Assembly (NCBI GenBank): GCA_004297935.1
Contig: SCRE01000015.1
Coordinates: 39,598-103,597 of the forward strand
Length of the DNA: 64,000 nucleotides
Source of the DNA: Microbacteriaceae bacterium
Lineage (GTDB): Bacteria; Actinomycetota; Actinomycetes; Actinomycetales; Microbacteriaceae
Reading direction: 5' to 3'
Shown: one piece after another, positions 53,567 to 58,518 of the stretch
Position numbering within the stretch: position 1 is the stretch's first letter
Layout: each line of letters begins with the position of its first letter
Notes under the pieces: model-generated
What the model saw: the letters and a program-made list of their open reading frames with translations, nothing else
What the model was told of the DNA's origin: nothing
Databases searched by the model: none
Position numbers and translations under genes: made by a program

Positions 53567-54076
53567 ATGATAACCCACGTGGCAGCGAAGTCAGAGGGTG
53601 CAACCGTGGGCGCGACGGTCGGAGCAACTGTCGGAGCAACCCCGGGAGCAACTGTGGGGACAACACCGAGTGCAACCGTGGGTGCAGGTGCGATGCTCGA
53701 GCGCGATCGCGCAACCGAGGCACTCGGCATGACCGTTCACACGGCCGAACCCGGCTATGCCGTCGTGTCGATGACAATTCGCGAGGACATGCTCAACGGC
53801 TTCGACATCGCGCACGGCGGAATGATCTTCTCGCTGGCGGATACCGCATTCGCGATCGCGTGCAACGAAGACGAACGAGTGACGGTCGCTGCCGGAGCAG
53901 ACATCACGTTCCTCGCGAGCGCCACGCTCGGCCAAGTGCTCACCGCGTCCGCGCACCGTCGCGCACTGACCGGTCGTAGCGGTATCTACGATGTCACCAT
54001 CACGGACGAAGGCGGCACCCCGATCGCGGAGTTCCGCGGTCGCAGCCGCATCACCAATCGCACCGCGAGCGAATAG
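53567..54076 (+). CDS. paaI: Hydroxyphenylacetyl-CoA thioesterase PaaI with repetitive N-terminal extension
   Basis: MLNGFDIAHGGMIFSLADTAFAIACN; hotdog-fold sequence; functional start may instead be the ATG at 53693 (MLERDRATEALGM). Confidence 0.88.
   Translation: MITHVAAKSEGATVGATVGATVGATPGATVGTTPSATVGAGAMLERDRATEALGMTVHTAEPGYAVVSMTIREDMLNGFDIAHGGMIFSLADTAFAIACNEDERVTVAAGADITFLASATLGQVLTASAHRRALTGRSGIYDVTITDEGGTPIAEFRGRSRITNRTASE
53596..53692 (+). repeat. Degenerate 12-bp tandem repeat encoding GATV/GATP units at the PaaI N-terminus
   Basis: EGATVGATVGATVGATPGATVGTTPSATVGAG. Confidence 0.88.
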
Positions 54077-54144: not shown

Positions 54145-54180
54145 CTGGATAATTCAGCACACCGAATATTGAAGGATCCC

Positions 54181-55500
54181 ATGTCACCGTCGACGAAAAC
54201 CCGCTTGACCGCCCCCGCAGCAGCCGAACTCGACCCCGAGGAGCGCATGTCGCGCGACGAGCTCCAGGCGCTGCAGCTGAGTCGGCTCCAGCACACGGTC
54301 CGGCATGCGTACGAGAACGTGCCGCTGTATCAGCGCAAGTTCGCGGATGCCGGGGTGCACCCCGACGACATCCGCTCGCTCGACGACGTGGCGAAGCTTC
54401 CGTTCACTACGAAAGCCGACCTGCGTGAGACCTACCCGTTCGGCATGTTCGCCGTGCCGATGAACCAGGTGGCACGCATTCACGCATCGTCGGGAACGAC
54501 CGGTCGACCGACCGTCGTCGGCTACACCCAGACAGACCTCAACAACTGGGCGCGTCTGATCGCACGTTCGCTGCGCGCATCCGGTGTTCGCCCCGGGATG
54601 CTCGTGCACAACGCCTACGGCTACGGCCTGTTCACCGGCGGACTCGGCCTGCACGACGGCGCCCAGCTGCTCGGCACCACCGTCGTGCCGGTCTCGGGCG
54701 GGCAGACCAGCAGGCAGGTGCAGCTGATCAACGACTTCAAGCCCGATGTCATCCTGTGCACGCCGAGCTACCTGCTGACCATTGCGGATGCCCTCGCCGA
54801 GGCGGGCATCGACCCTCGCGAGACGAGTCTGAAGGTCGGTGTGCTCGGCGCGGAGCCGTGGACGAACCAGATGCGCGACGAGCTCGAACAGCGGCTGGAC
54901 ATCGACGCGCTCGACATCTACGGCCTGAGCGAGGTGATGGGACCCGGCGTCGGCAACGAGTGCATCGAAACGAAGGACGGACCGCACCTGTGGGAAGACC
55001 ATTTTCTGCCCGAGGTGATCGACGACAACACGCTTGCACCGCTGCCGGATGGCGAGATCGGCGAGCTCGTCTTCACGTCGCTGACGAAGGAGGCGTTCCC
55101 GATCATCCGCTATCGCACGCGCGATCTGACGCGCCTGCTGCCCGGCACCGCCCGCGCGGGCATGCGCAGGATGGAGAAGATCACCGGACGCGACGACGAC
55201 ATGATCATCCTGCGCGGGGTGAACCTGTTCCCGACGCAGATCGAGGAGATCGTGCTGGCGATCCCCGAGCTCTCGCCGCACTTCATCCTGGAGCTTCGCA
55301 AACCGGCACGTCTGGATGAGCTCACCGTGCGCATCGAGGCCCGCCCCGAATTCGACGCGGATGCCTGTGCGCGTGCCTGCGCCCTCCTGATCGATCGCAT
55401 CAAGCAGCACGTCGGCTCGACCGTGCTCGTGAGGCTCGAGGAACCGGGCACACTTGAGCGCAGCACCGGCAAGCTGAAGCGCGTCTACGACCTGCGGTAG
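54181..55500 (+). CDS. paaK: Phenylacetate-CoA ligase
   Basis: IHASSGTTGRPTVVGYTQTDLNNWARLIARSLRASGV; LFPTQIEEIVLAIPELSPHF. Confidence 0.95.
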   Translation: MSPSTKTRLTAPAAAELDPEERMSRDELQALQLSRLQHTVRHAYENVPLYQRKFADAGVHPDDIRSLDDVAKLPFTTKADLRETYPFGMFAVPMNQVARIHASSGTTGRPTVVGYTQTDLNNWARLIARSLRASGVRPGMLVHNAYGYGLFTGGLGLHDGAQLLGTTVVPVSGGQTSRQVQLINDFKPDVILCTPSYLLTIADALAEAGIDPRETSLKVGVLGAEPWTNQMRDELEQRLDIDALDIYGLSEVMGPGVGNECIETKDGPHLWEDHFLPEVIDDNTLAPLPDGEIGELVFTSLTKEAFPIIRYRTRDLTRLLPGTARAGMRRMEKITGRDDDMIILRGVNLFPTQIEEIVLAIPELSPHFILELRKPARLDELTVRIEARPEFDADACARACALLIDRIKQHVGSTVLVRLEEPGTLERSTGKLKRVYDLR

Positions 55501-55605: not shown

Positions 55606-55957
55606 CGTTGTAGTGGAGCCAGTAGTCAGCTATGGATCCCGCCATGGTGCGGTGCATCAATCTGGCAGATCTGTGGACAACGACGTGAGCGGACACGTGT
55701 GATGACCAAGACGCAGCGCCACCCTGAAGACGCCGTCCCGCACTCCGGGTAGTGCCTCGTGAACGGAGTCCTTGCTCGACGGGGATGCCCCCGTCGAGGC
55801 GTTCACCGAACACGGCGCTCGATGTCGAGCTGACGCTGTAACTTGCGACGCCGACACAGGCAGACGTGCTGCGTATGAACCGTCGGCAAGGAAGTCTGCG
55901 AAGGAACTGGGCCATATGCATCAGCCTGGAGATCCTGCAATCATTGGCTGAGAAGTC

Positions 55958-56049
55958 CGGCCGATTCCGAGCAATACTAGCGGCTAAATCCGAGGAACAT
56001 GCTCGGCTGATTCCGAGGAGACTAGACGGCTGATTGTGAATCCGGTGTA
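55958..56049 (+). repeat. 4 x 23-bp iterons immediately upstream of the AAA ATPase gene
   Basis: cggccgattccgagcaatactag / cggctaaatccgaggaacatgct / cggctgattccgaggagactaga / cggctgattgtgaatccggtgta; exact 23-bp period. Confidence 0.88.
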
Positions 56050-56059
56050 CGGTTGAGGC

Positions 56060-57310
56060 GTGACCGAGTTGATCTCACGCCGTCTGCGCCCGATGTTCCG
56101 GCAACGTCTCGACGAGACGCCGGTACTGCTGCTGGAGGGGCCGCGGAGTGTCGGGAAGTCCACGCTCCTCGCGGAACTCGTCCCATCAGAAGAGCACCCG
56201 ATCTATGACCTCGACCAGGCGCAATTCCGGCTGCTTGCGCAGCAGAACGAGACCGCGCTGGTTGGCGGCGCTTCGCCCGTACTCATCGACGAGTACCAGC
56301 GTGTGCCCGCGCTCCTCGATGCGATCAAGGCGCACCTCAATCGCGAGACTCGCCCGGGCATGTTTGTCCTCGCTGGTTCTGCGAGCTACGACTCCCTGCC
56401 GAAAGGCACGCAGGCACTCACGGGCCGCATCCAGCGGCTCCCGGTGATGCCATTCACACAGACCGAGATCGATGACACCGATAACCACTTCATCGAGCGC
56501 GCATTCGAGTCAGACATCCCTCACACGGCGACACCCGCGAAGACGACGCGAGCAGACTACATCGACCGGGTGATGCGCGGGGGCATGCCGCTCGCGATCT
56601 CCTCAAGCTCCGCTGACGCCCGGAACCGCTGGATGCAAGGGCATGTGCGACAGTCGCTGGAACGGGACGCAGGGGAGATCCGACGCATCCATCGCAAGGC
56701 CGACCTGCGGCACATCCTCACGCGGATGGCCGGGCAGACGGCTGGGCTGCTCAACGTAAGCAAGGTCGCTCAGGGGCTGGAATCGTCGCGGGACACGGCG
56801 ACCGCTTACATCGAGCTACTGGAATCTCTGTTCCTGATCAGCACTCTGCCGGCATGGGGCACCACCATATCGTCGCGGAGCGTGTCAGCGCCGAAAGTGC
56901 ACGTCGTCGACTCCGGCATCGGCGCGCATCTGCTACGGTTGAGCGGTGCGAAGCTGCAGCGTCTCGACCCGTCGTCGATGACGGAGTTTGGGCATCTGCT
57001 GGAATCGTTCGTGGTGCAAGAGGCGATCCGGCAGACGACCTGGATGAGTTCGCTGGTCTCTGCCGGTCACTGGCGCACCCGCGACAATGATGAGGTCGAC
57101 CTCGTCCTTGAGCGCCACGACGGGGCTGTCATCGGCATCGAAGTCAAGGCCGGCGAGCGGGTGGAGGGCAATCAGTTCGCGGGGCTGAGGAAACTGCGGG
57201 ATAGGCTCGGGACGGCCTTCGCGGCGGGCGTGGCCTTCCACCTCGGCCAGGTCGGCTACGAGGAAGAGGATCGCATCCACTCGCTCCCCGTCGAGCGACT
57301 CTGGACCTGA
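56060..57310 (+). CDS. ATP-binding protein, AAA-14 / DUF4143 family
   Basis: VLLLEGPRSVGKSTLLAELV (Walker A), VLIDEYQRVPALLDAIKAHLN (Walker B), FVLAGSASY; C-terminal VDLVLERHDGAVIGIEVKAGERV. Confidence 0.9.
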   Translation: MTELISRRLRPMFRQRLDETPVLLLEGPRSVGKSTLLAELVPSEEHPIYDLDQAQFRLLAQQNETALVGGASPVLIDEYQRVPALLDAIKAHLNRETRPGMFVLAGSASYDSLPKGTQALTGRIQRLPVMPFTQTEIDDTDNHFIERAFESDIPHTATPAKTTRADYIDRVMRGGMPLAISSSSADARNRWMQGHVRQSLERDAGEIRRIHRKADLRHILTRMAGQTAGLLNVSKVAQGLESSRDTATAYIELLESLFLISTLPAWGTTISSRSVSAPKVHVVDSGIGAHLLRLSGAKLQRLDPSSMTEFGHLLESFVVQEAIRQTTWMSSLVSAGHWRTRDNDEVDLVLERHDGAVIGIEVKAGERVEGNQFAGLRKLRDRLGTAFAAGVAFHLGQVGYEEEDRIHSLPVERLWT

Positions 57311-57447
57311 CACACAGCCCCCGCGCTGAGTCTGCCTGTCCTCGAGCACGAACGCTTGCCCACAGAGCTGCGTGTCCTTCTTGACTTCAACGCAGGTCTC
57401 AGGCCCGCGAAATTCACAATCTCTACATCCTCCGCAGTAGACCGAAG

Positions 57448-57463
57448 CCGCGTAATCACGCGG
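57448..57463. promoter_or_regulatory. Palindrome ccgcgtaatcacgcgg (one central mismatch)
   Basis: Near-identical to the perfect palindrome at 57754-57769, each followed by similar ~25 bp. Confidence 0.55.
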
Positions 57464-57542
57464 AAGCAGACGGAGCTACTTTTGCTTCCCTACGCCGTGC
57501 GTTTTTCTATGTAGTGCCACGCGGCTGACCGTGAGATCGTTC

Positions 57543-57700
57543 ACGTCGAGGGGCAGTTCGCTTCGAGATGCCCCTCGGCACAGGCGATGTCTGCTGCGGC
57601 GTGCCGGGATGATGCGTCGAGTTTTGTCGTTGCCGTGGAGAGGTAGCTGCGAACAGTGCCTTCGGTCAGATGGAGGGTGTGTGGCCAGATCCTCATCCCC
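57543..57700 (-). pseudogene. C-terminal fragment of a LuxR/NarL-type response regulator
   Basis: Frame encodes TLHLTEGTVRSYLSTATTKLDASSRHAAADIACAEGHL with no intact upstream receiver/HTH. Confidence 0.6.
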
Positions 57701-57753
57701 GCAACAGTCGCCGTCCTCGGCCACCGCCGTAGTGACACCCGGATACGGCAGAG

Positions 57754-57769
57754 CCGCGTGATCACGCGG
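57754..57769. promoter_or_regulatory. Perfect 16-bp palindrome ccgcgtgatcacgcgg
   Basis: Identical to its reverse complement; paired with 57448-57463. Confidence 0.55.
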
Positions 57770-57870
57770 AAGTAGACGCAGGTATCTTTGCACCCATACG
57801 GGGTATCACCCGCGATATTGTGCGTGCGTTGCGGTCGTCGGCGTTGTCGCCGTGGGAAACTGGGCATGAC

Positions 57871-58518
57871 ATGACAGACACGACGGAGCTCAAGCGGGGG
57901 CGCCCCGGCTACGATCAGCGCGCCGTGCTCGAGGTCGCTGTGACCGCGTTCAACGAATTCGGCTACGACGCCACCTCGATGGGCGTGCTCGCAAAGCGGC
58001 TCGGCCTCTCGAAGTCGGCGATCTACCATCACTTTCCGGCGAAGGAGAACATCCTCGAGCTCGCCCTCGACGAGGCGTTGACCGCTCTCGAGGCTGTGCT
58101 GGTCGAGAACCTGCTGACCGAAGTGGATGCCGCGGCTGGCAACACTGCGGGCACCGCAAGCGCCCCAGGAAGTGCAGTCGATCGTCTGGCCGCTGTGCTG
58201 CGCGGCGCCGTCGCAGTGCTCGTCGACAAGCTGCCCTCGGTGACACTGCTGTTGCGGGTGCGCGGCAACACGGATGTCGAACGCCGAGCGCTCACCCGAC
58301 GGCGGGCGTTCGACCGTTCGGTCGCCGCACTCGTCGTTGAAGCACGCGACGAGGGTTCGCTGCGCAGGGATGTCGAGCCGGCAATCGTGTCACGCCTGCT
58401 GTTCGGCATGATCAACTCGATCGTCGAGTGGTACCGTCCGGGCGGGCCGGTGGATGCCGCGACACTCGCCGACGACGTGCTGACGGTCGCCCTCGACGGC
58501 CTGCGCGTGCCGCGATGA
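57871..58518 (+). CDS. TetR-family regulator, probable paa regulator
   Basis: RGRPGYDQRAVLEVAVTAFNEFGYDATSMGVLAKRLGLSKSAIYHHFPAKENILELAL; proximity to the paa genes. Confidence 0.9.
   Translation: MTDTTELKRGRPGYDQRAVLEVAVTAFNEFGYDATSMGVLAKRLGLSKSAIYHHFPAKENILELALDEALTALEAVLVENLLTEVDAAAGNTAGTASAPGSAVDRLAAVLRGAVAVLVDKLPSVTLLLRVRGNTDVERRALTRRRAFDRSVAALVVEARDEGSLRRDVEPAIVSRLLFGMINSIVEWYRPGGPVDAATLADDVLTVALDGLRVPR

Follow-up and report, generated by a model that had tools for sequence, protein, structure and literature searches.

We describe here an array of four 23-bp iterons at 55958-56049 of a 64,000-nucleotide stretch of the genome of a Microbacteriaceae bacterium (contig SCRE01000015.1; the whole stretch is called the window below), which lies directly in front of a gene for an AAA/DUF4143 ATPase. 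We propose, with a probability of roughly three in four, that this array is the private operator of that gene, and that the ATPase binds its own array cooperatively and autoregulates. Such arrays are family-wide, specific to each gene and registered with its predicted promoter, and the sequence of the repeated core covaries with the predicted recognition helix of the ATPase.

The iteron array

The four units abut and end 10 bp ahead of the GTG start codon at 56060 (Table 1), as an earlier, sequence-only reading of this DNA had placed them, and the gene directly behind them is of the AAA/DUF4143 type named there, with Pfam matches to AAA_14 (5e-19, residues 21-137) and DUF4143 (5e-40, residues 201-365) that together span the whole protein. 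The same reading had called the iterons exact, which is true of the 23-bp period and not of the sequences: pairwise identity between units is 10-15/23 (43-65%), made up of 9-14/16 in the core and 0-2/7 in the spacer. The units have in common a core of about 15 bp close to CGGCTGATTCCGAGG, with unrelated spacers, and the fourth retains only CGGCTGATT before it merges into the putative -10 element. The 16-bp core of unit 4 occupies -33 to -18 relative to the start codon, i.e., the -35 region, and orthologues have the same register.

The array stands out from the rest of the window. Its summed pairwise identity is 77 as compared to a window-wide mean of 37.2 (standard deviation 5.7), the top twelve 4x23 placements in the 64 kb all fall on it, and a lag-23 scan of 532 window tiles gave z > 4 in just two tiles, both of them over the array, which was also detected by Tandem Repeats Finder. 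Array and gene form one conserved block, 55772-57328 on the plus strand, common to Nesterenkonia ebinurensis (L005) at 84.5% DNA identity; two short repeat matches aside, the similarity between the two is confined to this block.

Repeat periods across the family

DUF4143 ATPase genes of Actinomycetota genomes, and of plasmids belonging to other phyla, supplied the upstream regions, and self-match was scored at lags 8-45 against local shuffles in a discovery set of 134 non-redundant upstream regions and in a held-out set of 87 further members. The mean z in the discovery set was 1.17 at lag 22 and 2.37 at lag 23, with lesser rises at lags 32, 33 and 44 and values near 0 at the remaining lags; z exceeded 4 at lag 21-24 in 56/134 upstream regions as compared to 0/134 gene-internal and 3/80 downstream controls. 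Lag 23 reached a mean z of 4.89 in the held-out set, every other lag being at or below 0.6, and z > 4 at lag 22-23 was found upstream of 66 of the 87 genes and inside none of the 87.

By threshold, 73 of the 134 discovery members have 22-24-bp arrays and 10 have 32-33-bp arrays, and these classes broadly track the protein tree. Alpha-proteobacterial relatives of the first clade have a 22-bp period. A second clade has a period of 32-33 bp, about three helical turns, which was also the best lag in 7/9 further members of that clade (Bacillota, Chlamydiota, Gammaproteobacteria, Bacteroidota plasmids). Searches returned no viral relatives of the window clade and one of the 32-bp clade (L156). The 32-33-bp period was seen, mostly in the second clade and in several phyla, at L085, L116, L117, L129, L139, L144-L148, L151 and L152. 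In some clades inverted repeats lie close to the -10 or the leader, replacing or beside direct arrays (L046, L054, L079, L101, L104, L137), which suggests a different binding geometry there.

The cores differ from member to member and among paralogues within one genome, for instance those of genome G333 (L007/L022, L038, L040 and L041). At L007:3766-3991 two divergent DUF4143 ATPase genes, 30% identical, surround one 226-bp intergenic region that holds two different arrays, each beside the start of its own gene; this divergent pair is a natural specificity control. The cores have a faint common skeleton, roughly gcggcaAATCgg, of 6.2-6.5 bits as compared to about 2.9 when column-shuffled (first set), and core similarity falls as protein identity falls (Mantel 13/2000). 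The expected conservation of iterons upstream of homologous genes was thus borne out for period, position and faint skeleton, family-wide and again in the held-out genomes, and did not extend to the core sequence.

Register with the predicted promoter

Exactly at -12 to -7 from the start codon, 29/54 and 29/85 members carry the motif TANNNT, as compared to 0.6-0.8 at other positions; when any in-frame start was allowed, 68/160 had it at -12, as compared to control offsets, for which the mean was 4.6 and the maximum 12. No -35 consensus accompanies it, with at most 1 of the 68 matching 5/6 of TTGACA at any -35-like position. With the -10 at -12 and no -35 consensus, the last core therefore covers the -35 region of what is predicted to be a leaderless promoter. 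The 3'-most core usually starts near -34/-33 or -24, and the repeats overlap the predicted promoter of the ATPase gene in a fixed register.

The ATPase and the covariation of its predicted helix with the core

The window protein matches the profile of PADLOC PDC-S01 (a phage defence candidate, PDC, consisting of a single-gene ATPase fused to PD-(D/E)XK) with an E value of 3.7e-139, as do all 32 family members scanned, the window protein and 31 others, so the function of DUF4143 ATPases is not as purely unknown as the sequence-only reading had it. G27, G32, K33, D77, E78 and K363 are invariant in the 32-member alignment, and E315, D347 and E361 are kept at at least 90%. Between the ATPase and the nuclease, at the same place in different members, lie weak, sub-threshold hits to winged-helix families (IclR/MarR/HTH_20/ArsR/HTH_11), with a further match of the family profile to TtgV at 225-263; we predict a winged helix-turn-helix (wHTH) domain here.

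Mutual information between protein columns and core positions was computed over 130 members. Of 408 windows, the one that opens the predicted recognition helix, residues 243-251, came top in 5/6 settings. Residue 244 pairs with core position 10: G stands there in 28/38 members with Arg and in 0/20 with an acidic residue, and C in 8/8 with Trp. Arg-G is classical major-groove chemistry. Of 16 phylogenetically independent pairs, 10.0 supported the pairing and 0.7 opposed it, at a median p of 0.006 (range 0.0005-0.07). One L007 row in this set had been given its neighbour's array, and its proper core likewise has C at that position. A sliding-window comparison of protein similarity with motif similarity gave a weak, unspecific correlation, per-column mutual information being more informative, and the 32-member alignment was too diverse for a pattern search. 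Indirectly, this covariation suggests that the core is read by the wHTH of the ATPase itself.

Table 1. Iterons, promoter element, gene and domains, in window coordinates
Feature	Position	Strand	Remarks
Iteron unit 1	55958-55980	+	core cggccgattccgagca, spacer atactag
Iteron unit 2	55981-56003	+	core cggctaaatccgagga
Iteron unit 3	56004-56026	+	core cggctgattccgagga
Iteron unit 4, degenerate	56027-56049	+	cggctgatt retained
Putative -10 element TACGGT	56048-56053	+	-12 to -7 of GTG; leaderless promoter predicted
AAA_14-wHTH-DUF4143 ATPase/nuclease, 416 aa, PADLOC PDC-S01	56060-57310	+	GTG start; Pfam, PADLOC profiles
AAA_14 ATPase domain	56120-56470	+	residues 21-137; Walker A G27..G32-K33, Walker B D77-E78
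Predicted winged-helix DNA-binding domain	56699-56854	+	residues ~214-265; recognition helix ~244-261
PD-(D/E)XK nuclease-like active site	56990-57148	+	E315, D347, E361-x-K363

A proposed private operator and its alternatives

The explanation that best accommodates these results is that the array is a private cis-acting operator of the ATPase gene behind it. We infer that the ATPase (PDC-S01, or AAA_14-wHTH-PD-(D/E)XK) physically binds each ~15-bp core through its own winged helix, and that its protomers would be aligned every two or so helical turns (22-23 bp), or every three (32-33 bp) in the second clade, probably by ATP-dependent contacts between their AAA domains. The 3'-most copy would cover the -35 region of a leaderless promoter that has just a -10 element, and we therefore propose that its occupancy sets the transcription of the gene. 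For instance, an oligomer sitting on the -35 slot may keep polymerase out, and the presumed nuclease might thus be kept low until the protein is titrated or remodelled. This analysis supports what was suggested at the outset from the letters of the DNA, namely that protein binds the array cooperatively and that the array may serve autoregulation.

Several observations weigh against this interpretation. No array was detectable by threshold in 40/134 discovery members, some of these no-calls reflecting contig breaks or too few units, and 11/134 have an inverted repeat instead of an array. The family test covers bacterial members. The pair of residue 244 and core position 10 was singled out from a scan of all pairs, R341 and L409 reach similar scores, and permuted sets reach comparable single-pair maxima (mean 6.3 and maximum 9.7 vs 7.3); under subsampling the rank of the 243-251 window ranges from 1 to 150, and the window protein and its Nesterenkonia counterpart, with R244 and a core C, break the Arg-G rule. 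An AlphaFold2 model built with five sequences was unusable (predicted local distance difference test score 34), and the wHTH assignment therefore rests on sequence.

With regard to the direction of regulation, autorepression appears somewhat more likely than positive autoregulation, and our preference is slight. Under positive autoregulation the array-bound ATPase would recruit RNA polymerase in a class II-type manner, as MalT or SARP proteins do, and the gene, once activated, would drive its own expression. The lack of a -35 consensus and the last core in the -35 slot would suit such an activator, and there are precedents among ATPase activators, as MalT (PMC4381067) and PimR, a SARP-LAL protein with 22-nt boxes (PMC5930380), bind direct repeats cooperatively and recruit polymerase. 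However, a leaderless promoter with just a -10 element needs no activator to fire and can be shut off by that very occupancy, a nuclease that switches on its own synthesis would carry a risk, and the sign of regulation cannot be set by sequence. Self-activation is a real contender, if not the one we would choose.

Alternatively, the array might serve the ATPase-nuclease mainly as a functional target, for self-marking or maintenance, with regulation as a by-product; the protein would assemble on it and hold the nuclease inactive, or would tell its own element from a rival. In favour of this, the family keeps its PD-(D/E)XK residues, the array moves together with the gene, and cores peculiar to each gene would fit a role in self-recognition; the family, a listed defence candidate, is also multi-copy and frequently plasmid-borne (370 plasmid records). 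We nevertheless consider this unlikely, as the fixed register with the -10 and the start codon points to transcription, and no second core cluster was found in the 3.95-Mb genome among the 100 core matches listed (of 112).

Binding by the ATPase itself is deduced from sequence, and a host regulator might in principle occupy the array in its place. This seems very improbable to us: cores differ between paralogues of one genome and even between the two arrays of one intergenic region, the same period tracks the ATPase tree across phyla, and the core covaries with the recognition helix. Chance, or a neutral tandem duplication without function, might be argued from units just 43-65% identical to one another, and is next to inconceivable for an array that is the extreme of the whole window and a lag-23 enrichment that is present in well over 100 members, absent in internal controls and replicated in held-out members.

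Further candidates were rejected. Replication iterons do not fit an adjacent gene of the AAA_14-DUF4143 type, with no Rep family among the profile matches of the window protein. A SARP operator does not fit the absence of enrichment at lag 11 (mean z 0.12 and 0.03 in the discovery and held-out sets) or of a SARP domain. A structured RNA leader was set aside as there was no Rfam match and the -10 position predicts no leader.

We speculate, and hold this broader picture to be doubtful, that PDC-S01 proteins are self-addressed defence ATPases. Each copy would have a DNA address of its own and assemble there into an ordered AAA filament, with the promoter shut and the nuclease idle. Invading DNA that titrates or remodels the filament would at once free the nuclease and allow new synthesis, and private cores would prevent cross-control between the many paralogues of a genome.

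Genomic neighbourhood

The ATPase gene is flanked by paaK (54169-55500) and a TetR-type gene (57820-58518); in L251, a relative of the same order, paaK directly adjoins the TetR gene with no ATPase in between. Between the ATPase and TetR genes of the window lies a 49-bp direct repeat (57446-57494 and 57752-57800, 82%) with the palindrome CCGCGTNATCACGCGG; short matches to this direct repeat occur in Nesterenkonia L005 at 1634-1676, on the opposite side of its ATPase. The minus-strand open reading frame 57541-58032 holds LTEGTVRSYLSTATTKL, a stretch that resembles what is left of a LuxR-type helix-turn-helix. A 12/24-bp tandem repeat at 53596-53676 falls in the region encoding the N-terminus of a predicted hydroxyphenylacetyl-CoA thioesterase (repeated GATVGATVG...), the start of which may be further downstream. 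Elsewhere in the same genome a second, diverged DUF4143 ATPase appears to be split over two reading frames (G000:C41:321416-322332; L002, L003) and may be a broken copy.

Comparison with known systems

Among the defence systems of prokaryotes PDC-S01 is reported to rank fourth in frequency, occurring 29,494 times in bacteria and 9,986 times in archaea, and most PDCs are described as awaiting experimental validation (PMC12988326). As far as could be found it is abundant and mechanistically uncharacterised, and no published description of these arrays was found in the open literature on DUF4143, COG1373, PDC-S01, AAA_14 and DUF234, a scope that takes in neither closed papers nor preprints, the PDC-defining preprint included. 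A widespread gene-specific operator would supply a likely DNA ligand for very many proteins and predicts their recognition helix. The arrays are ready probes for electrophoretic mobility shift assays and footprinting and a natural data set for decoding winged-helix specificity, and private operators suggest how several paralogues of one genome could coexist without cross-talk.

Plasmid replication and partition iterons are likewise direct repeats of ~20-23 bp beside the gene of their binding protein, and are often autoregulatory. The array described here differs from them in that it fronts a single chromosomal gene without Rep homology, the product of which is an AAA_14-DUF4143 protein. MalT, a STAND AAA+ activator, similarly combines an AAA+ core with a winged helix, and its multimerisation drives cooperative binding to repeated boxes (PMC4381067). 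However, the targets of MalT are other genes, and it has a sensor domain and lacks a nuclease, whereas the array here fronts the gene of the ATPase itself, with a core peculiar to each paralogue. SARP and SARP-LAL proteins such as PimR also bind direct repeats cooperatively on one face of the DNA, and classical SARP operators overlap the -35 box (PMC5930380). SARP operators consist of heptamers every 11 bp with a shared consensus, read by a SARP domain, as compared to the ~15-bp cores of diverged sequence every 22-23 or 32-33 bp found here, where there is no SARP domain. With regard to PDC-S01 itself, the text of PMC12988326 makes no mention of an iteron, direct repeat, promoter, operator or winged helix, and the operator array is the property that the present analysis adds to that system.
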